From: a virus
IMG/VR virus record: IMGVR_UViG_3300042197_001634
Location: 1-20,254 of that record
Length of the DNA stretch: 20,254 nt
Reading direction: 5' to 3' (one strand)
Shown here piece by piece: positions 1,627 through 19,992 of this stretch. How positions within the stretch are numbered: the stretch's first letter is position 1; the number at the start of each line of letters is the position of its first letter. Position numbers and translations under genes: made by a program. The notes under the pieces were generated by a model, which saw only the letters and a list, made by a program, of their open reading frames with translations, ran no database searches and was not told where the DNA came from.

Positions 1627-1652
1627 GTTTGGCTCCGTTCTGTTGATGGTTG

Positions 1653-3332
1653 TCACATCGCACTGGTCAACTGCGTCAGCGCACTGTCGCGTGACGTGTC
1701 GGTCTCAGAAAGCAGCTTCGCACCCTTGGCCGCCTGCTCCAGCATCGCAAGCTGCTGGGCCTGCGCCTGCTGGGCCGCTCGCATCTGGCGAATCTGGGCC
1801 ACCGCCTCATCGTCCCGCACGATCGACGGAGGCACGCCCAGCGCGTCGCCGTACTCGTCGAGGGCTTGGTCGAGGTCCACCTTGTCCAGCGCCTCGGGGG
1901 ACGCTTCGGCCAGCGAGCCGGCAAACCCGACGAACCGCTCGATGTTGGCCGTCGCCATCATCTTCTGAGCCTGCGACATGATGCTGATATACTCGACCTT
2001 CAGCGGCATGCCCTGCAACTCTTCCGGCGGCTCGGGGATCAGGCCGCGGCGTGACATGATTGCAAACACCCGGTCAATCAGCGGGTCCAGAAGCTCGTCG
2101 TTCAGGCGCTCAAGCACCGGCCCCAGCATCAGCATCTTCTCTTCGTGCCGCTCGGCGATCTCCCGGGCCGTGATCTCACGCCGGTCACTCATGGCCAGCA
2201 TGAGGAACAGGTCCTTGTAGAACGCCGCATTCACGCGGGACTGCGTCTCTTGGATGTCCGTGATGGCCGCGCCGATCTCGTACCGCACTTCATGGGCCGG
2301 ACGGAACCCCGCCTGACCGTTGACGGAATCGACGTAGGTGATGCCGCCCGGCAGCAGGTTCGCTTCGTAACCTTTGAGCGACGTCGGGGCGATCATGGGC
2401 GGATCGACCATCTTGTCGATGGCCTTGGTCTTGGTCTTTTGCTGGAACTGGAGCATCTTCACGTCGCCCAGCGCCGCAATGCCGGGGCTGTCGGTGCCGT
2501 AGACGTCCTCGCTGGCGGTGTGCCACCGGGGGCAGAGGATCGGGCACTCGTCGTACCCCGACTCTCGCAAGAACAAGCCGTCAGGGGCACCGAACTCGTA
2601 GTGGCACGAGAGCCACGGCTTGTACCGCGACTCAAGTTTCGTGTCGTCCCGCTGATCGTTGGGCTTGATGACATGCACCACCTGGACCCACTGCTCGTAG
2701 TGGCCCTGCTCCCACATCCGCCGGACGGACGGGCTGATGTTGCGGAACCGCTGCTCGTCGCTCCCGCCCGGCTGCCCGAACTCCTGGACGATCTGGCGGA
2801 CCGTCATCTCGTACTCACGAGCGAACGTGGTGGGCCGAAGCCGGTGATCGTTGGCGATCATGTACGACCCGACCGGGTACGAGTAGCACCGGATGACGTC
2901 CGTGTCGTCCTCGAACACACCAATCGGGGCGGTGCCGAACACGCCGCAGTCGCCGTAGACGGTGGGGAGCACGTTGTAGAGGTTCGATTTGGCGAACACC
3001 ATGAGCATGCGGCTCGTCACCCACGACAGCCACATCTTTGCCCGCGGGGCCTCGGCGATGTCCGGATCAGGTGTCGTCAGCCGCACCCACGGCCGGGCCG
3101 GTGAGGTGATACCAGAGTGCATGCCCGCTTGGAGGACACGGGCCGCCATCTGCCCGGTGTTGTCGACGATCTTGTTGTACCGCTTCTGGCCACGGTTGCG
3201 GTCGGTCACCAGCCAGCGGGACCGCACCGGCAGGTAGTAGTCGCTCAACTCCGTCCAGTGCGAAATGAACGACGAACGCTCATTGCGGAGCTGTTCGATC
3301 ATCGACTCATACTGCTTGCGGCGTGTGTCCAT
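1653..3332 (-). CDS. Portal protein (head-to-tail connecting protein)
   Basis: 559 residues from ATG 3332; an in-frame GTG at 3359 is another possible start. It matches the pattern of the 'bacteriophage head to tail connecting protein' family of podovirus portals. The N-terminus is long and helical (RRKQYESMIEQLRNERSSFISHWTELSDYYLP). It continues with GQKRYNKIVDNTGQMAARVLQAGMHSGITSPARPW, a hallmark of this family, then YPVGSYMIAND and a C-terminal helical region containing TAREIAERHEEKMLMLGPVLERLNDELLDPLIDR. The tail is Gln/Ala-rich. Twelve copies of such proteins form the ring at one capsid vertex through which DNA is packaged. The length (about 500-560) is normal for the family. It is followed after 26 bases by the beta-rich structural gene. 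Confidence 0.93.
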   Translation of the reverse strand: MDTRRKQYESMIEQLRNERSSFISHWTELSDYYLPVRSRWLVTDRNRGQKRYNKIVDNTGQMAARVLQAGMHSGITSPARPWVRLTTPDPDIAEAPRAKMWLSWVTSRMLMVFAKSNLYNVLPTVYGDCGVFGTAPIGVFEDDTDVIRCYSYPVGSYMIANDHRLRPTTFAREYEMTVRQIVQEFGQPGGSDEQRFRNISPSVRRMWEQGHYEQWVQVVHVIKPNDQRDDTKLESRYKPWLSCHYEFGAPDGLFLRESGYDECPILCPRWHTASEDVYGTDSPGIAALGDVKMLQFQQKTKTKAIDKMVDPPMIAPTSLKGYEANLLPGGITYVDSVNGQAGFRPAHEVRYEIGAAITDIQETQSRVNAAFYKDLFLMLAMSDRREITAREIAERHEEKMLMLGPVLERLNDELLDPLIDRVFAIMSRRGLIPEPPEELQGMPLKVEYISIMSQAQKMMATANIERFVGFAGSLAEASPEALDKVDLDQALDEYGDALGVPPSIVRDDEAVAQIRQMRAAQQAQAQQLAMLEQAAKGAKLLSETDTSRDSALTQLTSAM

Positions 3333-3371
3333 GGTGCCGTCCGTTCTGTGGTTGCTCACTGGCCCAGCCGG

Positions 3372-3629
3372 TCACTGGCCCAGCAGGGTCTTACGCTGGC
3401 CAGACACCTGGCCCACGTCACCGAGCGGGCCGGTCAGGATCGTGTCCGACCGCCCATACGCACCCATCGCCTTCTTGCGGGTCCGGTCCCGGCTCATGGC
3501 CGCTTCCGGCTCGCCGCTTTTGGCGTTGGGCATCGTCGGCATCTTGGTGGCTTTGTTCATGGCCGCAGTCCCAGCCGACATGCCGCCGCCGATCAGTGCC
3601 CCAGCGATGATTGCGGTCTCAATGCCCAT
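3372..3629 (-). CDS. Small glycine-rich phage virion-associated protein
   Basis: 85 residues from ATG 3629, preceded on its strand by an AGGGGGT ribosome site. The first 20-25 residues (MGIETAIIAGALIGGGMSAG) form a small-residue hydrophobic segment, possibly a single membrane helix. A Lys/Arg-rich middle follows (SRDRTRKKAMGAYGRSDTILTG), and the end is GQRKTLLGQ. The pairing of GRS.TILTG with a terminal KTLLG is a recurring pattern in small proteins between terminase and portal genes of podoviruses; family knowledge here comes from recall and no function is established. It lies between the GNAT gene and the portal gene with gaps of 26 and 39 bases. It could be an internal or ejected virion protein. 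Confidence 0.65.
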   Translation of the reverse strand: MGIETAIIAGALIGGGMSAGTAAMNKATKMPTMPNAKSGEPEAAMSRDRTRKKAMGAYGRSDTILTGPLGDVGQVSGQRKTLLGQ

Positions 3630-3655
3630 GTGCGACCCCCTGTTCAACGCCCGCT

Positions 3656-4141
3656 TCAATGCCCATCGTCGATCCTCCGGTCCAGTCGCCGCGCGTAACA
3701 GCGGTGAGTTTCGAGATACCCCATCCCCTCAAAGATGCGGGAGATGTCGCGGTTGGCCGTCGTCTGACGGACCACCACCTCCACGCCCTCATTGGCCAAA
3801 GCCTCGTCCGCAAACCGGATCAGCCGCAGGCCCGTCGAGCCCAGCCGGTACTCCGGCAGGATGAACAGGGCGTCCTGACACGCTTGCAAGCACCGCCGGC
3901 TGTGAAGCGACGTGCTGACGATGAACACCGAGTAGCCGATCAGCCGGCCCCACTCAGTCCGGGCCGTGTAGCAGCGGAGCAGGCCCATGTCCTCAAGCTG
4001 CTCATACTGCTCGGTCGCCAGGTCCAGCGGAACGCCGGGCAACATGCCCGTCTCGTCGTGGTTGGCGGCACAGATCGGCTTGATCTCCGACCACAAGCCG
4101 GCCACCCGCTCTTGCTGGATTCTGGGCGTCTGAAGCTCCAT
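3656..4141 (-). CDS. Phage-encoded GNAT-family N-acetyltransferase
   Basis: About 161 residues from ATG 4141, chosen because GGAG lies 10 bases upstream; ATG 4150 and GTG 4177 are in-frame alternatives. The core strand and acetyl-CoA loop read ALFILPEYRLGSTGLRLIRFADEAL, matching GNAT motif A (hydrophobic strand, then R..G..GxxL). It is followed by NRDISRIFEGMGYLETHRCYARRL, matching motif B and the usual GNAT ending (N....F...GF). GNAT enzymes transfer an acetyl group from acetyl-CoA to an amine. Copies between terminase and portal genes are common in podovirus-type phages, and their substrate is unknown. The N-terminal 60 residues are less conserved. It reads in the same direction as the head genes and overlaps nothing. 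Confidence 0.8.
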   Translation of the reverse strand: MELQTPRIQQERVAGLWSEIKPICAANHDETGMLPGVPLDLATEQYEQLEDMGLLRCYTARTEWGRLIGYSVFIVSTSLHSRRCLQACQDALFILPEYRLGSTGLRLIRFADEALANEGVEVVVRQTTANRDISRIFEGMGYLETHRCYARRLDRRIDDGH

Positions 4142-4184
4142 GCGATCCATGCTCCAACCGGCTATGACAACCGGCACACCGCCG

Positions 4185-4212
4185 ATACTATCAGGCGTTG
4201 TGGTTTTCTCAA
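4185..4212 (-). promoter_or_regulatory. Possible promoter upstream of GNAT and portal genes
   Basis: On the minus strand TTGAGA (4207-4212), a 16-base spacer and TAGTAT (4185-4190) form a partial sigma-70-like match in the 109-base gap between the terminase end and the GNAT start. The two hexamers match consensus at 4 of 6 positions each. It could give extra expression to the head genes, but no further support is visible. Confidence 0.3.
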
Positions 4213-4250
4213 TGGTGCGTCGATCAGGCCACTCCCATCATCCACTCCCC

Positions 4251-5822
4251 TCAAAACGGCTCGTACTCCCGCCGGGCGAACTGCTGGACGGAACCACCGC
4301 GGCTCCTGCCATCAGCACCACGCGGTGCTACTGGGTAGGCAAACGTCAATGCAAGGGCGTCGGCCCGGTCTGGTGAGGACAGCCCACGCTTCTTCATGTC
4401 GTCCTTTCGCTCCAAGACAATCTCGTTGTGGACGTTGTAGCCGTACTCACGTGATTCCAACTGCGACTTGAGGTCGTGGTCACGCTCGATCGCACCGCCT
4501 GTCCGCAGCCAGGTCCGCATCTTCGCCCACATCTCCGCCGCCTTGTTCGCTACTGGCTCGGAGTCCGGTGGCGGATTGTCCGACGTGCCGCCGAAATGCA
4601 CCTCGATCACGCGGAGGCCAAGCTGCCGCAGCCGGTCGATCACGCCGCCACCCACGCCGGTCGCGTCCACAAAAACCGCGTCGGCCTGCTCTTTGAGCAT
4701 GATCTCGGCCACCCTGCCCGCCAGCGTCATCAGGTCCACGCCACGCAGCCGCACAGTCGGCACCGACCTGGCATCCCGGCCCCGGCGAACCTGGATCACC
4801 GACTCGTGGTCGCCGTACCGGGCCACGTCCACGCCCAGCACAACCGGGTCGGTCATCAGTGGCACTTCCTCTCGCTCCATCGCCGCATCGATCACATTAG
4901 AGGGGATAAACTGCATTGAGCCGGCGGATGGGAACTGGCCACGGATGCGGACCCGAACAAAGTCCGAGTCCTCGCCGTAGTCCTCGACCCACTGTTGGAA
5001 CTGGGCCTGATTGGTCCCCTCCACCGTCCGGGAATCGATCTGCCGATGGTTCCACCGGTGCGACAGACGCCCGAAGCACTCACGGAACCGGCCGCTGTTG
5101 CGTGTGGGGTTGCCGAACGCGGCCCAGATGATCTCCGTGTCGGCGTCGGTCAGGGCACCTTCAGCGACTTCCCAGACCGCATCAGCGATTGCGCTGGCCT
5201 CGTCGAACACCAGCAGCAGCCGCCGGCCCTGATTGTGCAGGCCGGCGAACGCCTCAGTATTGGTCTCAGACCACGGGATCGAGTCCGTCCGCCACGTCTT
5301 TTCGTGCTTGGGATCCATCGACGCCAACGAGGTCGCTGTGAATCTGAACCAGTGGGCATTGATTGCCAACCGATGCCATTTGGCCAGCTCGGGCCAGGTT
5401 TTGGTCCGCAACTGGGCCTCGGTGTTGGCCGTCACGACGCCCTTGCAGCCCTCGTACGTGGACATGGCCCAAAGCACGATCCACGAGACGAAAGCCGACT
5501 TGCCGATGCCGTGGCCGGAGGCGACGGCGATCTTGATCGGATCAGTCTTGGGCCGCTCCATGTGCCAACCGACAGATGGGGCTGCAACTGGAGCCGCCGC
5601 CATCGCCCCGCTCACAGCGGCTTGAAGCGGCTTGCCGGCTTGAAGAGCCTCGCCAATCTGACACAGGACGTCGCACTGCCACTGACGCGGGCCGGTGTGG
5701 CCCTCAAGCTCGGTCCCCGCCTCCCCCCAGGGGAACGCGAACAGGACGAACCCAAGCGGGTCGTGTTGGAACCCAGCAATCGTGGCGATCAGCTCGTCCT
5801 CGATCTCAGCTTTGGTGGGCAT
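4251..5822 (-). CDS. terL: Terminase large subunit
   Basis: 523 residues from ATG 5822 (MPTKAEIEDEL); the upstream open frame overlaps another small gene and looks non-coding. The ATPase Walker A motif is GHGIGKS (103-109) and Walker B is LLLVFDEA (202-209). The C-terminal RNase H-fold nuclease shows GVDVARYGD (Asp 332), AVFVDATGVGGGVIDRL (Asp 386) and SSPDRADAL (Asp 488). The start FQHDPLGFVLFAFPWGEAGT and GPRQWQ are typical of this terminase group. TerL translocates DNA into the prohead by ATP hydrolysis and cuts concatemers. An Ala-rich insert (about 65-95) lies just before the ATPase core and looks non-essential. It is encoded 35 bases downstream of a 50-residue gene that follows the small subunit, forming a packaging operon. 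Confidence 0.96.
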   Translation of the reverse strand: MPTKAEIEDELIATIAGFQHDPLGFVLFAFPWGEAGTELEGHTGPRQWQCDVLCQIGEALQAGKPLQAAVSGAMAAAPVAAPSVGWHMERPKTDPIKIAVASGHGIGKSAFVSWIVLWAMSTYEGCKGVVTANTEAQLRTKTWPELAKWHRLAINAHWFRFTATSLASMDPKHEKTWRTDSIPWSETNTEAFAGLHNQGRRLLLVFDEASAIADAVWEVAEGALTDADTEIIWAAFGNPTRNSGRFRECFGRLSHRWNHRQIDSRTVEGTNQAQFQQWVEDYGEDSDFVRVRIRGQFPSAGSMQFIPSNVIDAAMEREEVPLMTDPVVLGVDVARYGDHESVIQVRRGRDARSVPTVRLRGVDLMTLAGRVAEIMLKEQADAVFVDATGVGGGVIDRLRQLGLRVIEVHFGGTSDNPPPDSEPVANKAAEMWAKMRTWLRTGGAIERDHDLKSQLESREYGYNVHNEIVLERKDDMKKRGLSSPDRADALALTFAYPVAPRGADGRSRGGSVQQFARREYEPF

Positions 5823-5857
5823 TGCGGCTCTTCTGGGGTTAGCGGCTCTTCCGGGGC

Positions 5858-6010
5858 TCACACAAGCCGGACAGGGATGCCGCGATCGACCGCGGCGGCG
5901 GCCATGCAGGGCGGCGCGAAAAACCAGCCGTCGTCGAGCATGATCTGCCAGCGGCTTGCGGTTGGTGCGGTGCTCGTTGTGGGTTGGCTCATCGTTGTGG
6001 GTTGGCTCAT
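5858..6010 (-). CDS. Small conserved-looking protein between terminase subunit genes
   Basis: A 50-residue frame starting at ATG 6010, whose ATGA overlaps the stop of the terminase small subunit by 4 bases; this coupling supports translation. The product starts with a doubled MSQPTT, then TASRWQIMLDDGWFFAPPCM and AAAAVDRGIPVRLV. The second half is not low complexity and looks like a genuine small domain. It lies in the frame other than the artificial extension of terL. A second ATG at 5992 is equivalent because the first 18 bases are duplicated. No family is recognised. Its location suggests a packaging or head-related accessory role, which is inference only. Confidence 0.55.
   Translation of the reverse strand: MSQPTTMSQPTTSTAPTASRWQIMLDDGWFFAPPCMAAAAVDRGIPVRLV
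5975..6010. repeat. Perfect 18-bp tandem duplication of a gene start
   Basis: Positions 5975-5992 and 5993-6010 are identical. On the minus strand each unit reads ATGAGCCAACCCACAACG, so the duplication adds six residues (MSQPTT) and a second in-frame start codon. The unit length keeps the frame, and it points to recent slippage. Confidence 0.95.
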
Positions 6011-6582
6011 ATGACATCCTCCGGTGTGGGTGTGATGGTGGGTGTGACGGTGGCGACGATCTCAGGCAGAGCAACATTCACCGCTGGCCCCTGAGGCGAT
6101 GCCCCAGGCCCGACCAGTCGCCGCTCCCGGGCCATCCGCAGCCGCTCGGCCAAGCGGTCACCGACGTCGATCTCCAGCCTGTCCGAGAAGAGCCGCAGGT
6201 GCTTGCCCAGCAGCTCGAGCGCACGCAGGGCCGTGGGCATGTCGCCATCCTTTTCACACTTTTCGGCGATGCGGTTGATGCGGTCTATCACCGACTCGGC
6301 GGTGATGGCAGTCTTGGCCGCCCTCGCCTCCATGTGCTTGCGGACGACCTTGGCCACTTCGGGCCGGCGCAGCAGAAGTGCCCCTGTTTTGTGCGGCCTC
6401 GCGTACCCAGCGCGTTCCGCCGCCGCGGTCGCATTGAGGTCCACCAGGTACTCGCGGGCAAAGATGGCGTGTTTTGGCGCCAGCCCGTCGATCGGACGGG
6501 TGACAGCAGATCGCCGCGGCCGCCGGCGGCGTGGCTTCACGTCAGTCGTGTTGGTGGTCGCAGTGTTGGCGGTCTTTCCCAC
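6007..6582 (-). CDS. terS: Terminase small subunit
   Basis: About 191 residues if translation begins at GTG 6582; ATG 6651 is an in-frame alternative and neither has a strong ribosome site, so the start is uncertain. After a basic N-terminal segment (KPRRRRPRRSAVTR) comes LAPKHAIFAREYLVDLNATAAAERAGYARPHKTGALLLRRPEVAKVV, the helix-turn-helix of the Terminase_2 family. It is followed by helical oligomerisation segments (ITAESVIDRINRIAEKCEKDGDMPTALRALELLGKHL). The small subunit recognises the packaging site in phage DNA and hands it to TerL. A large cluster of short repeats lies immediately upstream and is a candidate recognition site. The stop overlaps the next start by four bases. Confidence 0.88.
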   Translation of the reverse strand: MGKTANTATTNTTDVKPRRRRPRRSAVTRPIDGLAPKHAIFAREYLVDLNATAAAERAGYARPHKTGALLLRRPEVAKVVRKHMEARAAKTAITAESVIDRINRIAEKCEKDGDMPTALRALELLGKHLRLFSDRLEIDVGDRLAERLRMARERRLVGPGASPQGPAVNVALPEIVATVTPTITPTPEDVI

Positions 6583-6622
6583 GCGGGCATATGATACCGC
6601 CAGTGATGCTGAAATCTCAACG

Positions 6623-6668
6623 CCGCGTCGAACCGCGTCGAACCCCCACATCCTCGAACCGCGTCGAA
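6623..6668. repeat. Three copies of CCGCGTCGAA near the terS start
   Basis: Exact copies at 6623-6632, 6633-6642 (tandem) and 6659-6668. They lie just upstream of, or inside, the uncertain 5' end of terS, so they may be coding if the longer start is used. Ten-base spacing would place tandem copies on one face of the helix. Confidence 0.85.
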
Positions 6669-6753
6669 CCACACACTCAAAACACCCTAACATCACCCGA
6701 CTGTATTTTGTACCTAACAAAGACCGTAACAAGAGCCCAGACCCCCTCATAAC

Positions 6754-6768
6754 CTGCAAATTTTGCAG
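6754..6768. promoter_or_regulatory. Palindrome CTGCAAATTTTGCAG
   Basis: Seven-base arms CTGCAAA and TTTGCAG around a single T form a perfect inverted repeat. It ends one base before the first decamer of the CAGTGTAGGG array and overlaps the larger inverted repeat starting at 6768. It looks like a protein binding site; the protein is unknown. Confidence 0.5.
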
Positions 6769-6815
6769 ACAGTGTAGGGATAGTGCTGGGATAGTGCGGG
6801 GATCCCTACACTGTC
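6768..6815. repeat. 14-bp inverted repeat enclosing degenerate 11-bp direct repeats
   Basis: GACAGTGTAGGGAT (6768-6781) is perfectly matched by its complement at 6802-6815. From the left arm inward, three direct 11-mers follow each other: AGTGTAGGGAT (6771), AGTGCTGGGAT (6782) and AGTGCGGGGAT (6793). The element could be a cruciform or a multi-site protein binding target. Confidence 0.85.
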
Positions 6816-7105
6816 CAACTATAGATTCTACAACGAGTTAACCCCGACAGTGTAGGGCAGTGTAGGGATGTTTTGCATCTGTTGCGCCAACTATTCATCT
6901 TGACCCTAACATATACCGTATTCTATTTCCTCTTTTGTTAGGTGTCTGTTACCTCTGACTTTTGAAATCAGTTTTTTCGAGATGATCCCTACACTGCCCT
7001 ACACTGAAATTCGCAAGTGCATTGATTTTAAAGCAGTTACAACAACAAAAACAGTGTAGGGATGCCAAAAACGATCCCTACACTGCCCTACACTGCCCTA
7101 CACTG
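6770..7105. repeat. Array of ten CAGTGTAGGG decamers in both orientations (iteron-like)
   Basis: Exact forward copies start at 6770, 6848, 6858 and 7052. Exact reverse copies (CCCTACACTG) start at 6804, 6987, 6997, 7076, 7086 and 7096. Several are head-to-tail without spacing: two at 6848-6867, two at 6987-7006 and three at 7076-7105. Forward and reverse groups face each other, and an AT-rich stretch separates the second and third groups. The arrangement resembles iterons of replication origins or clustered sites for a partition, terminase or repressor protein. No copy was noticed elsewhere in the window. Confidence 0.92.
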
Positions 7106-7172
7106 TTTCAGGGTGCCCGTTCCGAACGGGGCGGATATGCTGGCGCTGGCTCCCAGTCACAGGAGGTCCGTT

Positions 7173-7406
7173 ATGCGTCGTCTCGCCAAGTGGTACCGCG
7201 TCGTCGCGTCAGTGATACGAGACATCAAACCCAACCGCCAGGAGGCGGGGTGGGCCGTGGCGATCCTAGCCGGGCTTGTGACCGGCTGGCTCATGGAGTG
7301 GTTCGGCTGGGGCGGCTCAGGAGGCTGGGGCTCAGGCTGGACGATCGCGGCCTCGCTCGTCGCATGGGCGGCGGCGTGGATGGCCTGGGCCTGCTGGGTG
7401 GATTGA
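7173..7406 (+). CDS. Small two-helix membrane protein
   Basis: 77 residues from ATG 7173, with a strong ribosome site (AGGAGG at 7161-7166, 6 bases upstream), which decides the start. A basic amphipathic N-terminus (MRRLAKWYRVVASVIRDIKPN) precedes two hydrophobic stretches: AGWAVAILAGLVTGWLMEWFGW (about 26-47) and WTIAASLVAWAAAWMAWACWV (about 55-76), separated by a Gly/Trp/Ser turn. It is the only rightward gene in the left two thirds of the window and lies between the decamer array and the first 240-bp repeat. Size and topology fit a small holin or an inner-membrane accessory protein, but no family is recognised. No lysis gene is adjacent, so a holin role is only one possibility. Confidence 0.7.
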   Translation: MRRLAKWYRVVASVIRDIKPNRQEAGWAVAILAGLVTGWLMEWFGWGGSGGWGSGWTIAASLVAWAAAWMAWACWVD

Positions 7407-7445
7407 TGGGGGCCGGCGGGGCCGGGGTGGCGGGGAGTGATTGCG

Positions 7446-7685
7446 GCTGTAAGATGACGATCAAAATGGCAAGCCGCGACAGATCGCGTCAAACCTCGTC
7501 AATGTTCTGATGGGGCCTGAAGTTACGATCAGCGGCGGGCAAAAAAAAGCCCCCGACCAAAATGGCAAGCGGGGGCGTAAAAGGCGGGTTGGCTGGATCG
7601 GTATTTGGCAAACAAACCGCGTTTTTGGGGGCGTTAAACAGGGCGCCCCGCGCGCCGCCCCGCGCGCCGCGCGCTCCCCGCGCGC
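7446..7685. repeat. 240-bp repeat, copy 1
   Basis: This block is repeated at 10407-10646 in the same orientation with a single difference (C at 7644, T at 10605). Inside are a leftward terminator, a repeated phrase AAAATGGCAAGC (near 7461 and 7559) and a very GC-rich right end made of CCCCGCGCGCCG units. No inverted termini or target-site duplications were seen, and it encodes no obvious protein of its own. Copy 1 is placed between the convergent membrane-protein gene and an HTH gene. Confidence 0.97.
7541..7576 (-). terminator. Intrinsic terminator in repeat copy 1
   Basis: On the minus strand GCCCCCG (7570-7576) pairs with CGGGGGC (7549-7555) around a 14-base loop, followed by eight T residues (7541-7548). 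This is a standard Rho-independent terminator placed about 60 bases beyond the stop of the HTH gene, ending the four-gene leftward operon. Confidence 0.85.
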
Positions 7686-7942
7686 GAGAACAGACTGCCA
7701 ATAAGCGCCTCGACGACCACATCCTGGTCGACCTGCCCGATCGCCGCCGCCACCTCGACCAGCCGATCCACGCTGATCACATGCCGGCCGGACAGCATCC
7801 GATGGACATTGGGCTGGGCCATGCCGATCGCCGCCCCCAACTCCCGCTGCGTCATGCCGCGCTCAGCCATGGCGGCCTCGATGGCCCGCAGCACCCGGCC
7901 CTGGGCGTCGGTCGATGCGTCAGATGATGCGTCCTGTGTCAT
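7634..7942 (-). CDS. XRE-family helix-turn-helix protein
   Basis: 102 residues from ATG 7942, whose ATGA overlaps the stop of the preceding gene. Residues 16-70 contain the helix-turn-helix: AIEAAMAERGMTQRELGAAIGMAQPNVHRMLSGRHVISVDRLVEVAAAIG, with TQRELGAAIGMAQPNVHRML as the two DNA-contacting helices. The protein is small, without a sensing domain, as in many phage antirepressors or operon regulators. Its last 16-17 residues (RAGSARRAGRRAGRPV) are read from inside the 240-bp repeat, so the native C-terminus has probably been replaced. As the last gene of an operon with an inverted repeat in its promoter, it may autoregulate that promoter; this is inference. Confidence 0.82.
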   Translation of the reverse strand: MTQDASSDASTDAQGRVLRAIEAAMAERGMTQRELGAAIGMAQPNVHRMLSGRHVISVDRLVEVAAAIGQVDQDVVVEALIGSLFSRAGSARRAGRRAGRPV

Positions 7943-8424
7943 CGCGGACTCTGATCCTTTTGTTCCGCCCAGACCCACGCCAGACACTCCGACAGGTCGG
8001 CCATCCACGCCATCGCCTCCCGCAGCTCCTCCGGCGGCAACAGGACCGCCGACGGCATGATCCGCGTGGCCAGCCAGGGTGTTGCGGGCTGCCGGCTCGC
8101 ATCCGTCGCGTGCGGCTGGACCGAGTGCATGGCCCGCCAGACCACCGCCCCACACCGGCTGTGCAGCGCCACCCCCAGCCAAACCACATCGACCCAGACC
8201 ACCAGACGAGCCTGCACCGTCACGGACAAACACCGCCCAGGCTCCGCCGCCCCAGACAGCCGCCACGGACGCGGGCCCGGCACAGGGACCATCGCCGCCC
8301 CCTCCCGGACGAGCTGCTCCACGATCGGCCCCAGCACCCGCCGGCTCGCCGGCTGAACATGCGACGCCGGTACCATGACCGAGTCCCCCGTCTCCAGGGT
8401 GATGTGCAGGATGTTCCGCACCAT
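7939..8424 (-). CDS. Hypothetical phage protein
   Basis: 161 residues from ATG 8424. The start overlaps the stop of the upstream gene (TGATG) and the stop overlaps the start of the HTH gene (ATGA), so it sits in a tightly coupled operon. Recognisable stretches are MVRNILHITLETGDSV, a GPRPWRLSGAAEPGRCLSVTV segment, and WLGVALHSRCGAVVWRAMH near residue 80-99. It ends in an acidic helix (PPEELREAMAWMADLSECLAWVW). By eye this resembles unnamed proteins in proteobacterial prophages with a 'GR.L..TV...P.VT.GVA.HS..G..LW..LH' pattern, but this is memory only. No catalytic motif is visible and no function is proposed. Confidence 0.65.
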   Translation of the reverse strand: MVRNILHITLETGDSVMVPASHVQPASRRVLGPIVEQLVREGAAMVPVPGPRPWRLSGAAEPGRCLSVTVQARLVVWVDVVWLGVALHSRCGAVVWRAMHSVQPHATDASRQPATPWLATRIMPSAVLLPPEELREAMAWMADLSECLAWVWAEQKDQSPR

Positions 8425-8843
8425 CAGACAATCTCCCCATCCCGAGGGCCGCCCACGAGACGGATCGACACACTGTCGAAATTACCCAGAGGCTTGCCGC
8501 CTCCGTTCTGGGTCCAGACGTGGCCATCAAGAGATAGCCACCCGCCGTGGCCATCGCCCACCCCACAGTCGACATCCTGAGTGGATGGATCGACGTGGTA
8601 TTGGTCTCCATCCCACACGGCGTCCACGATCCTCTTGCCACCCGCCATCTCGACCAGACGCGGGTCCGGGGTGTGCTCGGGCCAGTTCTGGCGATGGGTC
8701 TCCATCGCCTGCTTCGCCTCATCGGGAGAGGCTCGAAAGTACGACCAGGTGTGCCCCCGAAAATCGTAGTCCGGGGGGAACTCGCAGAGTTCTGGCGGAG
8801 CGTCGCCAGGGTATGCGATGTAAGGGATGAGATCATCAGACAT
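8424..8843 (-). CDS. Hypothetical protein
   Basis: 139 residues from ATG 8843, with GAGGAG 7 bases upstream on its strand. The product is acidic and aromatic-rich: MSDDLIPYIAYPGDAPPELCEFPPDYDFRGHTW at the start, a charged middle, a glycine-rich stretch (GVGDGHGGWLSLDGHVWTQNGGG) and the ending VSIRLVGGPRDGEIV. It has no membrane segment and no motif that I can assign. The mRNA leader before it carries a 37-base element also found before the upstream gene. It is the second gene of the operon starting at the 9676-9703 promoter. Confidence 0.65.
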   Translation of the reverse strand: MSDDLIPYIAYPGDAPPELCEFPPDYDFRGHTWSYFRASPDEAKQAMETHRQNWPEHTPDPRLVEMAGGKRIVDAVWDGDQYHVDPSTQDVDCGVGDGHGGWLSLDGHVWTQNGGGKPLGNFDSVSIRLVGGPRDGEIV

Positions 8844-8855
8844 GTCAGGCTCCTC

Positions 8856-8892
8856 GCCCCTAAGTGTGCCCCGAGGCGCGGGCTGTGGATCA
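8856..8892. repeat. 37-bp leader repeat, copy A
   Basis: Matches 9623-9659 at 35 of 37 bases and lies 12 bases upstream of the 8843 start codon. On the transcribed (minus) strand it contains CCCGCGCCTCGGG, a small perfect hairpin (CCCG/CGGG), immediately upstream of the ribosome site. It could be a shared translational control element or a duplication scar. Confidence 0.9.
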
Positions 8893-8915
8893 GGCCGACT
8901 CCGGCCCTGGCCATG

Positions 8916-8931
8916 GCCCCCCGTAGGGGGC
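8916..8931. other. GC-rich hairpin between two coupled genes
   Basis: CCCCC and GGGGG flank a short loop (GTA-containing), located 12 bases beyond the stop of the 8943-9611 gene. No T run follows on the minus strand, so it is more likely an mRNA-stabilising or attenuating structure than a full terminator. Confidence 0.4.
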
Positions 8932-8942
8932 TCTGGCGAGGG

Positions 8943-9611
8943 TCAGGACTCGAGGGCGGCGACCAGCGCGTCGGCCTCCTCGACGCCGATGTGATCACGA
9001 ACCCAATCGGGGTCGGGCTCGCCATAGCGAGTCGTGTCGGCGGCCCCAGGATTCCGCTGCGGGCCAGTCTCCCTGACGACGCGGCTCATGCCGCAGCAGA
9101 GGCAGTGCGAGTGATACTCCATGCCGGTCCCACCCGTGGACCACACGCCAGGATTCTCTCGGCAGCCGCCCTCATGCGCGGCGGACCAGTAATGCACCCC
9201 CATCGGGCACTCGGGCTCATCTGGCAGGATGTCGATCTCCGACTCGTCGCCCACCACCTCCGACTCGATCCGGGGATGATAGACCGCCACCTCGACCGAC
9301 AGCCCGCCATCTTCGAGATCCCAGTCTCCGCGGCGAGCCCACCGCTCAGCGATGAGGACGGCCTCAAGGAGGCTGCGGCCACGGATGTCCCGATCTCCAC
9401 CCTCGCCGCTGTCGATCTCGGCAGCCCAATTGGTCGGGCCGGCGATGATCCGGTCCAGGAGGCCCGGCACCGATTCGATGTCGTCGGCGTCGAGCTGGGT
9501 CGACTCGTCTGGGTCGACGTAAATGTCGTCGATCATCTGGTCGAGCAATTCGTCCAGCTCGTCGGCGGTCAGGGCGGCCAGTTCTGCGGCAGTGTAGGAC
9601 TTGATGGACAT
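8943..9611 (-). CDS. Hypothetical protein with Cys/His zinc-binding cluster
   Basis: 222 residues from ATG 9611, with AGGAG 7 bases upstream. The N-terminal half (1-130) is very acidic (TADELDELLDQMIDDIYVDPDESTQL). The C-terminal half holds Cys 135, His 140, His 146, Cys 150, Cys 170, Cys 172 and Cys 173 in CPMGVHYWSAAHEGGC and HSHCLCCGMSR, a likely zinc site. The phrase ENPGV followed by a Gly-rich turn and C..CG..R recalls small unnamed proteins of bacterial mobile DNA, from memory only. The acidic start suggests DNA mimicry as one possible role, but nothing tests this. First gene of a four-gene leftward operon with a recognisable promoter 65 bases upstream. Confidence 0.7.
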   Translation of the reverse strand: MSIKSYTAAELAALTADELDELLDQMIDDIYVDPDESTQLDADDIESVPGLLDRIIAGPTNWAAEIDSGEGGDRDIRGRSLLEAVLIAERWARRGDWDLEDGGLSVEVAVYHPRIESEVVGDESEIDILPDEPECPMGVHYWSAAHEGGCRENPGVWSTGGTGMEYHSHCLCCGMSRVVRETGPQRNPGAADTTRYGEPDPDWVRDHIGVEEADALVAALES

Positions 9612-9622
9612 GTTCGACTCCT

Positions 9623-9659
9623 GCCCCTGAGTGTGCCCCGAGGCGCGGGCTGTCGATCA
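9623..9659. repeat. 37-bp leader repeat, copy B
   Basis: Second copy of the element at 8856-8892, here 11 bases upstream of the 9611 start codon and downstream of the predicted transcription start. The two differences are A/G at 8862/9629 and G/C at 8887/9654. Position relative to the ribosome site is the same in both copies. Confidence 0.9.
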
Positions 9660-9675
9660 CCCGATCGACGCCCAG

Positions 9676-9703
9676 ATAATATCATATGTGATATGCGTGT
9701 CAA
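9676..9703 (-). promoter_or_regulatory. Near-consensus sigma-70-type promoter with internal inverted repeat
   Basis: On the minus strand TTGACA (9698-9703), a 16-base spacer and TATTAT (9676-9681) match the housekeeping consensus at 6/6 and 5/6. The segment 9679-9694 has arms ATATCA and TGATAT around TATG, filling the spacer and touching the -10 box, where a repressor would block polymerase. It should drive the four genes from 9611 to 7634. Confidence 0.75.
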
Positions 9704-9730
9704 GGGGGGTGCGAAGGTTTTTTTTGCGGC

Positions 9731-10453
9731 TCATGCCCACTCCCGCGACAAGTTGAGGAAGCGTGTGGTTTTGCCGTCAAAGAGCAGTTCGACGATGCCG
9801 GTGGGGCCATTGCGCTGCTTGGCGATGATGATCTCCGACACGTTCTCCTTGCCGGCGTTTTCCGCAGCCCACTCCTGATCGCCGTTGTGGTAGTACGCCT
9901 CACGGTGGAGCATCATCACCACGTCGGCGTCCTGCTCGATGGAGCCCGATTCGCGGAGGTCCGACAGCATCGGCTTCTTGCTCTCTCGGCCCTCGGGGTT
10001 GCGGTTGAGCTGCGACAGGCAGATCACCGGCACCCGCAGTTCACGGGCCAGCGCTTTGACTGAGCGGCTGATGGCCGAGACTTCGGCCTGGCGGCTTTCG
10101 GAGCCGGGGAAACTCATGAGCTGCATGTAGTCGATGACAATGCACTGGATCGACTGCTGCGAAGCGAGGCGGCGGGCCTTGGCACGCAGCTCCATCGCGC
10201 TGATGCCCGGCGTGTCGTCGATGAACATCGGAGCCTGCGAAAGCTCGTCGGCTGTCTCCTGCAGGCGGGCAAGCTCCTCGGAGTTGAGCATGTTGCGGCG
10301 CATCCGCTGACTGTCGACACCCGAGCGGGCGCTGAGCAGTCGCTCGGCAAGCTGCTGCTTGGACATTTCGAGGGAGAACACGGCCACGGGCAGTTTGCTG
10401 TCCACTGCTGTAAGATGACGATCAAAATGGCAAGCCGCGACAGATCGCGTCAA
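9731..10453 (-). pseudogene. dnaB: Truncated replicative DNA helicase DnaB, C-terminal part
   Basis: The frame encodes the C-terminal RecA-like domain of DnaB: LPVAVFSLEMSKQQLAERLLSARSG, DDTPGISAMELRAKARRL, CIVIDYMQLM (Walker B), SRSVKALARELRVPVICLSQLNR, MLSDLRESGSIEQDADVVMMLHR and IIAKQRNGPTG. Homology begins at VDSKLPVAVF (about 10406), exactly where the 240-bp repeat starts. The N-terminal domain and the Walker A loop, together about 220 residues, are missing, so ATP-driven unwinding is not expected. The frame stays open 47 bases into the repeat, with a TTG at 10453 and a GTG at 10405 as possible starts. A terminator inside the repeat lies upstream, so expression is doubtful. The sequence looks closer to planctomycete DnaB than to phage versions. 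Confidence 0.88.
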
Positions 10454-10646
10454 ACCTCGTCAATGTTCTGATGGGGCCTGAAGTTACGATCAGCGGCGGG
10501 CAAAAAAAAGCCCCCGACCAAAATGGCAAGCGGGGGCGTAAAAGGCGGGTTGGCTGGATCGGTATTTGGCAAACAAACCGCGTTTTTGGGGGCGTTAAAC
10601 AGGGTGCCCCGCGCGCCGCCCCGCGCGCCGCGCGCTCCCCGCGCGC
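10407..10646. repeat. 240-bp repeat, copy 2
   Basis: Same orientation as copy 1, offset 2961 bases, one mismatch. Its left edge coincides with the break in dnaB and its right edge supplies the last codons and stop of the 10595-10909 gene. The two copies flank a 2.7-kb segment (7686-10406) holding the dnaB remnant and the four-gene operon. Confidence 0.97.
10502..10537 (-). terminator. Intrinsic terminator in repeat copy 2
   Basis: Identical to the terminator of copy 1: a GCCCCCG/CGGGGGC stem with a 14-base loop and eight T residues on the minus strand. It lies about 60 bases past the stop of the chimeric gene, ending the leftward accessory operon and isolating the dnaB remnant. Confidence 0.85.
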
Positions 10647-10909
10647 TGAGGAGAGCGGCAGTTATCGGGCTTCGGAACCAAATTAGCCGCCGCCAACGCC
10701 TCCGACATGACAGGGCTCACACTGTTGCCGACCATCCGCACCTGACCAGTCTTAGTGATGGGCCTGCCAGTGATGTCGTGGTCGATCACGTAGGAGTCAG
10801 GGAACCCTTGGGCCCACACGCTGGCCGCGCTCAGATGGGGGTGGTGCGCGTCTTTGAGACGCTTGATGAGGTTGCGGATTTCATCGGGGGCGGTCCAGAT
10901 CGATGCCAT
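10595..10909 (-). CDS. Chimeric short protein: metallopeptidase-like start joined to cytosine methyltransferase end
   Basis: 104 residues from ATG 10909, with GGAG 6 bases upstream. Residues 1-31 (MASIWTAPDEIRNLIKRLKD, then AHHPHLSAASV) resemble the start of putative phage metallopeptidases, where a helix ends in HHPHL. From residue 32 the text becomes WAQGFPDSYVID, then TKTGQVRMVGNSVSPVMSEALAAANLV. This matches the C-terminal end of DNA cytosine-C5 methyltransferases (motifs IX-X, AQGFP and GNSVSP). The catalytic PC and ENV motifs are absent, so it cannot methylate alone. The last 16 residues come from the 240-bp repeat. It looks like a deletion fusion of two phage genes, possibly a pseudogene with an intact ribosome site. 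The metallopeptidase part is the weaker identification. Confidence 0.6.
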   Translation of the reverse strand: MASIWTAPDEIRNLIKRLKDAHHPHLSAASVWAQGFPDSYVIDHDITGRPITKTGQVRMVGNSVSPVMSEALAAANLVPKPDNCRSPQRAGSARRAGRRAGHPV

Positions 10910-10937
10910 GGTCATCTCCAGAAATTGGTTGTGGTGC

Positions 10938-11270
10938 TCAGCCGATCGGTACCAACCCGTCGGCCGCGTCACGCATTTCGATGGCGAGGTTTTCACGAGA
11001 AAACGCTTCGTTTCGCAGGGATTCAGCCTCTTCTTCCAGTTCCGCTGCTTTCTGGAGCAGTTCGGACCTTCGCCACGTCACGCCGGCAAAACTCACCACC
11101 CTGTTGTTGGCCACCAAAGTCGCGTGCCGCTCAAAGCACGTCGGCGAGCAGATGAGCTGCCCATGGTGCTCAGCGGCCCACCACCGGACGGGCATCACCA
11201 CGCCGCAGATGGGGCAGTCCTGGGCCTCGAGGATTTGAACCGGGGGCATGTCGAGAAAGCACTGGGTCAT
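10938..11270 (-). CDS. Hypothetical zinc-finger protein with C-terminal coiled coil
   Basis: 110 residues from ATG 11270, with AGGAG 7 bases upstream. Cys 19, Cys 22, Cys 41 and Cys 45 (DCPICGVV and LICSPTCFERHA) form a CX2C-X18-CX3C cluster of the zinc-ribbon or treble-clef kind. Residues 70-100 (ELLQKAAELEEEAESLRNEAFSRE, in two heptad-like blocks) should form a short coiled coil. No enzymatic motif is visible. A DNA or RNA contact role is plausible for such proteins but not shown. It lies 34 bases downstream of tRNA-Ala on the same strand and upstream of the chimeric gene. Confidence 0.65.
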   Translation of the reverse strand: MTQCFLDMPPVQILEAQDCPICGVVMPVRWWAAEHHGQLICSPTCFERHATLVANNRVVSFAGVTWRRSELLQKAAELEEEAESLRNEAFSRENLAIEMRDAADGLVPIG

Positions 11271-11303
11271 GACGTGGCTCCTTTCAGAAGACCGATTCGG
11301 AAA

Positions 11304-11376
11304 TGGAGATGGTCCGGCTCGAACGGACGACTTCCTGCTTGCGGAGCAGGCGCTCTACCAACTGAGCTACATCCCC
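11304..11376 (-). tRNA. tRNA-Ala (anticodon CGC), with C at position 33
   Basis: The 73-base minus-strand sequence folds into a full cloverleaf: acceptor GGGGATG/CATCTCC, D stem GCTC/GAGC, anticodon stem CCTGC/GCAGG, five-base variable loop, T stem GTCCG/CGGAC with loop TTCGAGC, and discriminator A. The third acceptor pair is G3:U70, the identity element for alanine. The anticodon loop is TCCGCAA, so the anticodon is CGC and position 33 is C instead of the near-universal U. CCA is not encoded. It would read GCG codons. Confidence 0.9.
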
Positions 11377-11439
11377 GAGGCTTTCGAAAACCCCAGCCAC
11401 GCCGGTCAGACGGGGCGGGGCGAAAAGGAGGAGTATGAA

Positions 11440-11511
11440 TAGCGGGAGCAGGATTCGAACCTGCGGCCTCCTGGGAATGAGCCAGGCGAGCTACCACTGC
11501 TCCATCCCGCC
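11440..11511 (-). tRNA. tRNA-Met (CAT), initiator-like
   Basis: The 72-base minus-strand cloverleaf has acceptor GGCGGGA/TCCCGCT (pair 1:72 is G:U), D stem GAGC/GCTC, anticodon stem CCTGG/CCAGG with loop CTCATTC, T stem GCAGG/CCTGC with loop TTCGAAT, and discriminator A. The D stem has A11:U24, a feature of bacterial initiator tRNAs, and the TGGAGCAGTGGTAGCTC segment is close to tRNA-fMet. Two of the three initiator G:C pairs at the base of the anticodon stem are present (30:40 and 31:39). U37 and C38 are unusual. CCA is not encoded. Confidence 0.88.
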
Positions 11512-11572
11512 GTACCGGGCCGGGCGGTGCCGTCAAGTCACCGACCGACCCAGACCCTCGATCCGTCGAGAG

Positions 11573-11852
11573 TCAACCACCGGCCAGCCACTGCACGAGC
11601 CAGCCGAGGGCGTGAAAGCTGCCAATCAGGCCCGTGATGGCGATCGGAGCCAAGAGCCAGAAGATCAGGAGGTTTCGGAGGCCCACGAGCACATCGCCCC
11701 CCTTGGGCCAGACCATGTCCGGCTTCGTCGTGTGGGCCCAGGGCCCCGCGTCGATCAGGATCCGAAGCCCACCAGACGCTCTGGGCCACGAACAGGTACC
11801 CGTAGCCACGCGCCACGATGAAAACGATCGCTGGGAGTGTGGTGCCGCTCAT
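11573..11852 (-). CDS. Small membrane protein, apparently split by a frameshift
   Basis: The start ATG 11852 overlaps the stop of the XF1762-like gene (ATGA). It reads MSGTTLPAIVFIVARGYGYLFVAQSVWWASD, a likely first membrane segment. In this frame the sequence then turns Arg/Pro-rich and continues to a stop at 11538, looking non-coding. One base further on, the +1 frame gives LIDAGPWAHTTKPDMVWPKG followed by LLIFWLLAPIAITGLIGSFHALGWLVQWLAGG and a stop at 11573, a clear second membrane region. The best explanation is one two- or three-helix protein broken by an indel near 11755-11765, or a programmed shift. Two overlapping small genes are an alternative. No family is recognised; holin-like topology is possible. 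Confidence 0.5.
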
Positions 11853-11873
11853 CGCCCCACCTCCGGCATCTGC
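11847..11873. repeat. 27-bp gene-boundary repeat, copy 1
   Basis: Identical to 12559-12585. On the minus strand it encodes the C-terminal QMPEVGR and stop, and at the same time contains GGAGGTGGGGCGATGA, the ribosome site and overlapping start of the following gene. Confidence 0.95.
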
Positions 11874-12310
11874 TTGAGCACACGCATCCACCGTCGCTTC
11901 GGCTCCGGCCTGCGAGCTGATGCCCTCGTCCGTGATGGACGCGACCACTCCCCGCCAGAAGTCAGGCCCATGTCCCGGAATCCAGCGGCTCGCAAGCTGG
12001 TCCCAGGCTCCTCCGGCAGCGTGTACGTCCACGCCTCGACGTAGCCGAGAGACTTCGCGGCGCGGCACAGAGCCCCGTAAAGCATCGAGCAGGCATTGTC
12101 GGCTCCATCGGTTGCGACGCGGGTGATGACGCCCCTGCCGGTCCCCTGCCAGACGCGGGGGGGATTGGCGAACACCGCAACCCCTCGGATCGCCCCGGCA
12201 TCGTCAGCGACAGCGGCAGCAAACAGGCCACCCTGCAATTCCGGAAGATGCCGATGCGTGGCCCGGACGAACTGGACAGCCGCCTTCACGGTGATTGGAA
12301 CAACCTTCAT
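11849..12310 (-). CDS. XF1762-like protein (GNAT-like fold)
   Basis: 153 residues from ATG 12310, which overlaps the stop of the preceding gene by four bases and has GGGGGTGGGG upstream. It begins MKVVPITVKAAVQFVRATHRHLP, with central AIRGVAVFANPPRV and the diagnostic VTRVATDGADNACSMLYGALCRAAKSLGY followed by TYTLPEEPGTSLRAAGF and GGEWSRPSR. This is the pattern of the XF1762 family found in many phages and mobile elements (R...DG..NACS.LYGA..R.A...GY...TYTL..E.G.SLRA.G). The fold is related to acetyltransferases but the reaction is unknown. The natural end is around the basic segment PEPKRRW; the last residues QMPEVGR match the end of the DUF5131 protein encoded upstream. Confidence 0.88.
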   Translation of the reverse strand: MKVVPITVKAAVQFVRATHRHLPELQGGLFAAAVADDAGAIRGVAVFANPPRVWQGTGRGVITRVATDGADNACSMLYGALCRAAKSLGYVEAWTYTLPEEPGTSLRAAGFRDMGLTSGGEWSRPSRTRASARRPEPKRRWMRVLKQMPEVGR

Positions 12311-12312
12311 CG
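12290..12312. repeat. 23-bp gene-start repeat, copy 1
   Basis: Matches 13767-13789 at 21 of 23 bases. On the minus strand both encode MKVVPIT. Here it is the true start of the XF1762-like gene; the other copy lies at the 5' end of the DUF5131 frame. Confidence 0.9.
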
Positions 12313-12564: not shown

Positions 12565-12585
12565 CGCCCCACCTCCGGCATCTGC
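12559..12585. repeat. 27-bp gene-boundary repeat, copy 2
   Basis: Identical to 11847-11873. Here it encodes the natural end of the DUF5131 protein (RQMPEVGR, stop) and the ribosome site and start of the small zinc protein. Confidence 0.95.
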
Positions 12586-17724: not shown

Positions 17725-17730
17725 GCCCCC

Positions 17731-18277: not shown

Positions 18278-18598
18278 ATGCCACTCGCCCGCAAACGTCC
18301 CCGCACGCTCGACATCGCCCCGCAGGTTGAACGCGATCCCGAAGTACCCCCAGCGATTCCGGTCTATCAGGCGGCCATCCAGTACGGCATCATCGCCGAC
18401 TGGTTCGAACAAAGGCCCATCACCAAGGACGCCCACCGGCTCGACGCGGAGGCGTTCGACCTCTTCAACCGTGCCGAGGCCCAGCTTCGAGAGTCGATCC
18501 GGCAAGCCGTGCTGATGGGCGAGAAGGGCGACCGCCACCGCATGAAGCTCCGGTACATTCCCCGCCACATGCTCGGACTGGATGGAGGCTGCGCATGA
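18278..18598 (+). CDS. Hypothetical protein coupled to helicase gene
   Basis: 106 residues from ATG 18278; the ribosome site is weak (GAAGAAG about 8 bases upstream). After a basic start (MPLARKRPRTLDIAPQ) comes VYQAAIQYGIIADWFEQRPITKDAHRLDAEAFDLFNRAEAQLRESI and a basic C-terminal part (GEKGDRHRMKLRYIPRHMLG). It is probably all-helical. The stop overlaps the helicase start by four bases (ATGA), so the two are made together and it may be a helicase partner or loader; this is inference from position. No family is recognised. Confidence 0.7.
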   Translation: MPLARKRPRTLDIAPQVERDPEVPPAIPVYQAAIQYGIIADWFEQRPITKDAHRLDAEAFDLFNRAEAQLRESIRQAVLMGEKGDRHRMKLRYIPRHMLGLDGGCA

Positions 18599-19992
18599 CT
18601 TTCGCGCTCCGGCCGTACCAGACCGACATCATCACCGAGACACGCGCGGCACTGTCCCGAGGCGTCCGCAGTGTGCTGATTCAGTCCCCGACCGGTAGCG
18701 GCAAGACGGCCCTGACCGCGTTCATGCTGGGCACGGCCCGGAGCCGCGGCAAGCGGGCATGGTTCATCGTCCATCGCCGTGAACTGATCAAACAGTCGGC
18801 CAAGACGTTCGACCTTGCAGCCACACCACACGGCATCATCTCCGCCGGGTTCCTGCCGCGACCGAGCGAGCTGATCCAAGTCGCGTCGATCCAGACCCTC
18901 ACCCGCCGGCTGACAGCAATCCAACCACCTGACTTGATCGTCTGGGACGAGTGCCACCACTGCGCATCGACGTCCTGGGCACAGACACAGGCTGCGTTCC
19001 CAAAGGCCCTTCACATCGGCCTCACCGCCACCCCTGAACGGCTGGATGGACGCGGGCTCATCGACCACTTCGACGTCATGATTAAGGGGCCCGACGTCCG
19101 CTGGCTGATCGACCAAGGCTTTCTTTCCGAGTATCGGTACTACGCGCCGTCCACCGTGCAACTGGTCGGCGTCAACCCCATCGCCGGCGACTTCAACAAG
19201 AAGAGCCTGGGGGCCGCGATGGACCAGCCCACGATCACCGGGGACGCGGTACAGCACTACCTGCGTCTGGCTCGGGGCAAACGGGCCGTCGTGTTCGCGG
19301 TCAACCGCATTCACAGCCAACGCGCCGTCAGCCAGTTTCTAGCGGCCGGCGTCCCGGCTGAGCACGTGGACGGGGAGACTCCGACTGAGCAGCGGGACGC
19401 TGCCATCGACCGCTTCGCCAGAGGCCAGACGCTTATTCTGTCGAACGTCGATCTGTTCGGCGAGGGTTTCGACCTGCCGGCTATTGAGGCCGTCATTCTG
19501 CTTCGCCCTACCCAGTCGCTCGGGCTGTACCTCCAGCAGGTCGGACGGGCCTTGAGGCCGTCACCGGGCAAGGAACACGCCATCATCCTCGATCACGCCG
19601 GCAACGTCGCTCGGCACGGCATGCCCGACGACCCGAGGGACTGGACCCTTGACGCCAAGCCTCGTGCCAAGCGGGGCAAGTCGGACCCCACCCTGAGCGT
19701 GCGAATGTGCCCCAAGTGCTATGCCGCGATGCCCAGCGGCAAGCCGGTGTGTGTGGTCTGCGGCCACATCTTCGAGGTCGAGCAGCGTGAGATCACGGAA
19801 GCGGATGGCGACCTTCAGGAAGTGACGAAGGAGCAGATCGAGCAGATGCGCCGGAGCCGGTTCAAGGAGCAGGCCCAGGCTCGGACTGTGGAGGAACTGG
19901 AACAGATCGGCAGGGCGAGGGGGTACAAGTCGCCTCGTCGCTGGGCGGAAGCGGTGATGGCCGGACGCCGGGCAAGGAGAATCGCATCATGA
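18595..19992 (+). CDS. Superfamily 2 DEAD/DEAH-box helicase with zinc ribbon
   Basis: 465 residues from ATG 18595. Motif Q-like LRPYQTDII (5-13), Walker A SPTGSGKT (31-38), DECHH (118-122), GLTATP (142-147), GEGFDLP (289-295) and QQVGRALRP (314-322) give a complete SF2 ATPase of the SSL2/type III restriction-like group. After the motor, MCPKCYAAMP and CVVCG provide Cys 372, 375, 386 and 389, a zinc ribbon, followed by a charged helical tail (about 400-465). Such helicases are found in phage replication modules next to annealing proteins and primases and are thought to remodel DNA at forks or recombination intermediates. The stop overlaps the next start. All motor motifs are intact, so it should be active. 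Confidence 0.94.
   Translation: MTFALRPYQTDIITETRAALSRGVRSVLIQSPTGSGKTALTAFMLGTARSRGKRAWFIVHRRELIKQSAKTFDLAATPHGIISAGFLPRPSELIQVASIQTLTRRLTAIQPPDLIVWDECHHCASTSWAQTQAAFPKALHIGLTATPERLDGRGLIDHFDVMIKGPDVRWLIDQGFLSEYRYYAPSTVQLVGVNPIAGDFNKKSLGAAMDQPTITGDAVQHYLRLARGKRAVVFAVNRIHSQRAVSQFLAAGVPAEHVDGETPTEQRDAAIDRFARGQTLILSNVDLFGEGFDLPAIEAVILLRPTQSLGLYLQQVGRALRPSPGKEHAIILDHAGNVARHGMPDDPRDWTLDAKPRAKRGKSDPTLSVRMCPKCYAAMPSGKPVCVVCGHIFEVEQREITEADGDLQEVTKEQIEQMRRSRFKEQAQARTVEELEQIGRARGYKSPRRWAEAVMAGRRARRIAS

Follow-up and report, generated by a model that had tools for sequence, protein, structure and literature searches.

Phage genome and locus

The DNA analysed here (the window) is a 20,254-bp IMG/VR record (G000) of a phage that is also represented by a longer record, IMGVR 3300042198_000071 (G001; 44,905 bp), to which window positions 1-7566 and 7446-20254 align at 99.99% identity. 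An array of short repeats lies between two divergently oriented gene sets (Table 1). To its left are the terminase small and large subunit genes and a gene for a podovirus-type head-tail connector. To its right follow a gene for a 77-aa protein, a Cro/CI-like gene, a DnaB-type helicase fragment, tRNAs, a RecT-like gene, a YqaJ nuclease gene, a CI-like gene and a ResIII helicase gene. The SF3 helicase gene reached through this last module starts outside the window, about 600 bp past its right end (L028:13536-16070, equivalent to window coordinates 20850-23384 if extended) and is 13.7 kb from the array. On its 3' side there is a tRNA-like segment (L028 about 16170) and then a tyrosine integrase gene; the segment between the two genes is a possible attachment site.

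Table 1 Features of the array and its surroundings (window coordinates)
Feature	Position	Strand	Basis or remark
terL, terminase large subunit	4251..6077	-	PHROG 5902; true start probably inside the ORF
terS, terminase small subunit	6007..6600	-	Pfam Terminase_2 2.2e-17, PHROG 51 3.9e-23; N-terminal start uncertain; reads away from the array
Complete iteron array (proposed origin of replication): ten exact CAGTGTAGGG units, four forward and six reverse	6770..7105	.	Match count; kept in second contig
Left sub-array	6770..6813	.	Forward iteron 6770-6779, degenerate units at 6782 and 6793, reverse iteron 6804-6813
Forward iteron tandem pair	6848..6867	+	Gapless; within left arm (6848-6869) of the 22-bp inverted repeat
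AT-rich core, candidate DNA-unwinding element	6868..6986	.	Lowest GC in the 44.9-kb genome
Reverse iteron tandem pair	6987..7006	-	Within right arm (6985-7006) of the inverted repeat
Right sub-array	7052..7105	.	Forward iteron 7052-7061 facing reverse tandem triplet 7076-7105
Predicted small membrane protein, 77 aa	7173..7406	+	First gene right of the array; no family match
Cro/CI-like HTH protein	about 7634-7960
DnaB-type helicase fragment	9731..10453	-	Incomplete as a replicative helicase: C-terminal domain only, cut by the 240-bp direct repeat
CI-like (Cro/CI-like HTH) repressor	16987-17577
ResIII/DEAD-type helicase	18595..19992	+	Replication/recombination module leading to the SF3 gene

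A two-orientation repeat array around an AT-rich core

Exact matching across the whole window finds ten CAGTGTAGGG units, starting at 6770, 6848, 6858 and 7052 on the plus strand and at 6804, 6987, 6997, 7076, 7086 and 7096 on the minus strand. All ten lie in the array, with 0 copies across the rest of the window, and dinucleotide shuffles of the window contain a mean of 0.00 copies and a maximum of 0. Two pairs and one triplet run head to tail without gaps at a 10-bp step, and the spacing between groups is irregular. After the first copy come two degenerate units, AGTGCTGGG and AGTGCGGGG, which suggests that the working unit is nearer to CAGTGTAGGGAT and that the array comprises about twelve units. 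The groups form inverted sets on both sides of the AT-rich core, and the two inner pairs make up an inverted repeat of 22 bp without mismatch that encloses 115 nt. As a single strand the array folds much better than shuffled sequence (z = -8.3), mostly because the copies are inverted. No other two-orientation 7-mer cluster in the 44.9-kb genome comes close to it in strength, and all ten copies are also present in G001, hence the array is not an assembly artefact.

When 100-bp windows of the 44.9-kb genome are ranked by GC content, the lowest twelve all fall inside the array (G001 44201-44411), at 36-40% GC compared with approximately 60-70% in the surrounding phage genes. An earlier note on this DNA had described ten exact copies, four forward and six reverse and partly in gapless tandems, as too organised for chance, and had placed them around an AT-rich core in a GC-rich region next to terS. 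The exact count and the shuffles, the GC minimum and the identity of the adjacent gene (Terminase_2, 2e-17) bear out each of these points. The GC-skew switch that it had proposed to look for at this position disappears after removal of the trend: the detrended extremes are at 30.2 and 9.7 kb of the 44.9-kb genome. The raw cumulative GC-skew minimum at 44441 was rejected as a sign of an origin, given that it depends on the cut point of the linear record. The detrended AT-skew minimum (43915) lies near the array but is given no weight, because it coincides with a change in gene direction. Known RNA families in the window are limited to two tRNAs, tRNA-Ala(CGC) at 11304-11376 and tRNA-Met(CAT) at 11440-11511, with none at the array, and searches of the literature for the motif found nothing beyond primers and unrelated sequence.

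An SF3 primase-helicase as candidate initiator

G001 encodes an intact 845-aa SF3/D5-type helicase with matches to DUF5906 (2.5e-13), D5_N, Pox_D5 and RFX_DNA_binding. An AlphaFold (AF2) model of its C-terminal 446 aa (pLDDT 91.7) contains a C-terminal winged helix, in which residues 394-404 of the modelled fragment (KNVFSRDLTAA) are the predicted recognition helix. The closest solved structure in a Foldseek search is the SaPI5 primase-helicase 7ola (2e-16), followed by other SF3/D5-type primase-helicases; a profile search of the protein also finds 7ola (1e-43), and the winged helix alone matches the DNA-binding domains of RFX1 and RFX5 by profile. There is no array at the 3' end of this phage's SF3 gene, and in this respect the locus departs from the directly downstream arrangement of the SaPI/Cch2 type.

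Arrays follow SF3 genes in many relatives

We collected 80 viral loci with relatives of the window SF3 protein, of which 48 were independent after clustering at 70%, and scored as an array at least five copies of one 7-mer, with at least two per orientation, starting between -150 and +1000 bp of the SF3 stop. Such a two-orientation array is found at the 3' end of the SF3 gene in 19 of the 48 independent relatives, compared with 3.4 expected from random placement, and at a threshold of at least seven copies the numbers are 13 observed and 1.5 expected. The observed counts were not reached in any of 200,000 simulations. In many relatives the strongest local repeat cluster starts right after the SF3 stop codon. 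An SF3-adjacent array is absent in 29 of the 48; adjacency is common, not universal.

The array motif is clade-specific. Among the arrays of SF3 relatives only those of L172-L175 (CTTGCAGGGAT) and L176-L179 (CTGTGCAGGGAT) resemble that of the window, and the signature K[NS]VFxR, seen in the window SF3 helix AKNVFSRDL, is common only to L172, L176 and L179. The nearest helicase domains (L162-L167; 50-57% identical) carry other motifs, such as AGTACCGCG in L167, and other recognition helices. Across 18 clades, which are not fully independent, those with similar recognition helices tend to have similar array motifs (rho 0.52, p 0.03), and helicase-domain identity does not correlate with motif similarity (rho 0.10). 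Since the signal also comes largely from one clade, the correlation is supporting, not decisive. The array motif thus appears to follow the SF3 recognition helix, a supporting link made through a short helix and essentially one relative clade.

A reverse search was started from the motif alone, with intergenic arrays told from in-frame coding repeats by eye and by orientation. At five loci (L019, L027, L078, L240 and L251) an array found with the AGTGTAGG motif comes directly after a D5/VapE helicase gene, on its 3' side, and at a sixth (L015) the array is 80 bp upstream of such a gene. DUF5906 is over the cut-off in 8 of the 14 motif-selected records, and a ninth has a VapE helicase; as a rough background, and by a different measure from the DUF5906 count, tblastn finds a relative of the window helicase in 1,079 of 50,697 phage records (approximately 2%). 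An SF3 gene was not detected in four motif-selected contigs, of which three are fragments and one has a weak array only. Five candidates (L013, L014, L018, L022 and L024) were set aside as in-frame coding repeats, as was a motif-only scan for three copies of GTGTAGG, which returned mostly 12-bp in-frame coding repeats. L020 and L023 were left out, given that their arrays are in one orientation only. Locus L240 is Lactobacillus phage phiadh, in which the AGTGTAGGG repeats fall inside a replication origin annotated by the depositors (rep_origin, AJ131519 13084-13469) immediately after the primase gene.

Interpretation and comparison with known systems

We consider it very probable that the array is a replication origin, displaced from the helicase gene and located beside terS, with iterons for the SF3/D5-type primase-helicase that the phage itself encodes. 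The computation directly shows the array with its AT minimum, an SF3 protein that ends in a winged helix, the tendency of such arrays to lie at SF3 genes and the motif-helix match; from these we infer DNA binding, melting and origin function. The iterons, CAGTGTAGGG(AT), would be bound by the C-terminal RFX-like winged helix, and helicase subunits would load on the two oppositely oriented iteron groups to give two hexamers that face each other across the AT-rich core. These would melt the core and unwind bidirectionally, with primer synthesis as the next step. Many relatives keep the origin directly 3' of the SF3 gene, whereas in this phage the two would have parted, leaving the origin upstream of terS; in the simplest history the array and the packaging genes may have stayed together while the SF3 gene moved.

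Several observations weigh against this reading. The 13.7 kb between array and SF3 gene are unlike the arrangement in many relatives, the closest helicase domains (L162-L167) go with other motifs, no GC-skew switch is left after detrending, and the four motif-selected contigs mentioned above lack a detected SF3 gene. In addition, the wing of RFX-type winged helices can take part in DNA recognition, and this element is not conserved among these SF3 proteins.

Origins of the SF3 iteron type are already known, and what is unusual here is the displacement of the origin from the helicase gene. The earlier note had recognised no known system in the array, but the arrangement fits the SF3/D5-type iteron origins of SaPI Rep, SCCmec Cch2 and the phiadh rep_origin. 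The C-terminal domains of SaPI Rep and Cch2 bind iterons directly downstream of their own genes (PMC7581432). SaPI Rep shares with the window system a self-loading SF3-type helicase, a C-terminal DNA-binding domain and a short-iteron origin (PMC7581432), although the SaPI origin is directly downstream of rep and has another iteron sequence, whereas that of the window is far from its gene, beside terS and in a large phage genome. Cch2 is, like the window SF3 protein, a D5_N-type helicase, and its C-terminal domain on its own binds direct repeats that lie downstream of the gene (PMC7581432). In contrast to the window, the putative Cch2 origin has three 5-nt AAGTG iterons, and binding needs no inverted groups.

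Phage phiadh resembles the window phage in its repeated AGTGTAGGG core, in the AT-rich intergenic location of the repeats, in its temperate lifestyle and in its D5/DUF5906 primase-helicase. It differs in having three full AGTGTAGG copies, all forward, together with related TATACAC repeats, in their position directly after the primase gene, and in a helicase that is of the NrS-1-polymerase/D5 type and has another recognition helix. The alpha protein of P4 is also an SF3 primase-helicase that binds short iterons in both orientations, and the P4 ori is distant from its partner region crr; the P4 iteron sequence is unrelated to that of the window. P4 has both ori and crr, whereas a repeat-cluster scan of the 44.9-kb phage genome finds no crr-like second array.

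In the crenarchaeal plasmid pRN1 the origin is on the 3' side of the SF3 rep gene and remains functional at another position (PMC4234260). Its replication protein, orf904, combines an SF3 helicase with a winged helix, like the window SF3 protein (PMC4234260). The pRN1 origin has a 21-nt stem and a 58-nt loop (PMC4234260), compared with a 22-bp inverted repeat and a 115-nt core in the window, but it is described as a stem-loop without iterons, whereas decamer repeats dominate the window array.

Other readings of the array

The earlier note had listed a packaging site, a partition site and an operator field beside a replication origin with iterons, and the comparative evidence from SF3-associated arrays supports the last of these four. 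A pac or cos site, at which TerS would bind the decamers and recruit TerL to cut the concatemer, is suggested by terS and terL immediately left of the array, by a terminase gene soon after the array in L170, L221 and L223 (in L170 the SF3 gene is followed by the array, a short ORF and a terL of PHROG 5902, the family of the window's TerL) and by motif arrays near likely packaging genes in the unrelated G002 and in L016/L089. We nevertheless regard it as improbable. In many lineages the arrays directly follow SF3 helicase genes, the next genes are not terminases in L172, L231 and phiadh, and the motif appears to track the SF3 winged helix, not TerS. The proximity of terS can be attributed to the frequent order of phage modules, replication and then packaging.

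The position between divergent genes, in a phage that encodes two Cro/CI-like HTH proteins, would also suit an operator field on which a repressor or regulator controls divergent promoters for terS on the left and the 77-aa gene on the right. This, too, has little chance of being correct, given that non-palindromic single units in 10-bp tandem steps, the irregular spacing between groups and the copy number are unlike dimeric operators, that there is no such field beside the repressor genes, and that the association with SF3 genes elsewhere would be left unexplained.

A different initiator at this origin, whether DnaA, a Rep_3-type protein or a DnaB-containing system, would be in line with the DnaB C-terminal fragment, and iteron origins are also used by Rep_3 initiators. 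The DnaB gene is truncated, though, no Rep_3 initiator (PF01051) is found in G001, and the DnaA box TTWTNCACA has two scattered matches (13222 and 16936), none near the array. The correlations between SF3 protein and motif would also have to be a coincidence, so that only a slim chance is left for an initiator other than the SF3 helicase. Centromere-like sites typically contain short repeats in tandem, but a partition site of a phage-plasmid is hardly credible in a phage with a tyrosine integrase and with neither ParB_N (PF02195) nor a ParA/CbiA-type ATPase (PF01656) in G001, both of which were detected in most control genomes.

An origin served by the SF3 primase-helicase would give a concrete candidate for the start of replication in an uncultivated phage. 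Clade-specific two-orientation arrays commonly follow phage SF3/D5-type genes, which would make the origins of many uncultivated phages readable from sequence, and an array that has moved away from its gene would still be assignable through its motif. A specificity code of SF3 initiators may be developed from the pairing of helix and motif.

Related arrays in bacterial chromosomes and further repeats

The earlier note had named arrays of the decamer on host chromosomes as an observation that would count against its reading. Arrays of nearly the window's unit are indeed present in Bacteroidales chromosomes, but several of them sit in small mobile elements with their own SF3-like (VapE) gene, which fits a pairing of origin and initiator. 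A speculative extension, which we think doubtful, is that GTGTAGGG is a recurrent and portable origin specificity. Nearly the same unit would then be used by unrelated SF3 families (VapE types, the Pox_D5-like type described here, and D5/NrS-1 types in Firmicutes and other phages) and by Bacteroidales elements with GTGTAGGG-rich inverted ends, and a helix code would predict the origin motif from the protein sequence. If this were true, origins and initiators could be exchanged or parasitised among phages, satellites and gene-less elements.

Three elements in Prevotella MAGs (L259 about 1060-2830, L265 about 3490-5710 and L263 about 3180-4580) have inverted ends of approximately 110 bp built of GTGTAGGG repeats. 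Between the ends of L265 lie a VapE/DUF5906/DUF3874 SF3-like gene and a small gene, with related genes in L259 and L263; no transposase was noticed in the three, which are possibly helicase-based mobile elements. Other Bacteroidales MAGs (L258, L268, L270, L272 and L276) contain gene-less, MITE-like intergenic elements of approximately 350-480 bp, several of them in one genome; their ends resemble GAAAAAACTTTTTCGCGAAAACCCTACACCCCTACA, and GTGTAGGG arrays lie inside. In the Ruminococcus MAG RUG12253 (L251, L257 and L267) a D5/NrS-1-type helicase gene is followed by a TAGTGTAGGG array, and a second TAGTGTAGGG array (L257) lies without a helicase gene between chromosomal genes, beside a gene that, judged by inspection of its sequence, resembles a sigma factor.

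Within the phage itself, window positions 12561-13802 encode a DUF5131 protein (PF07505), a phage protein family of unknown function. A 240-bp perfect direct repeat (7446-7685 and 10407-10646) flanks a 2.7-kb segment that holds the Cro/CI-like gene and the truncated DnaB gene. The G001 record begins within the segment, and the two ends of the record overlap at the repeat, so that the segment could be a duplication, an excisable element or an assembly error. A 98-bp inverted repeat with 99% complementarity (14875-14972 and 17340-17437; 2.37 kb apart) has its arms in the RecT-like ORF and the CI-like repressor ORF, and could mark an invertible segment or an assembly feature.
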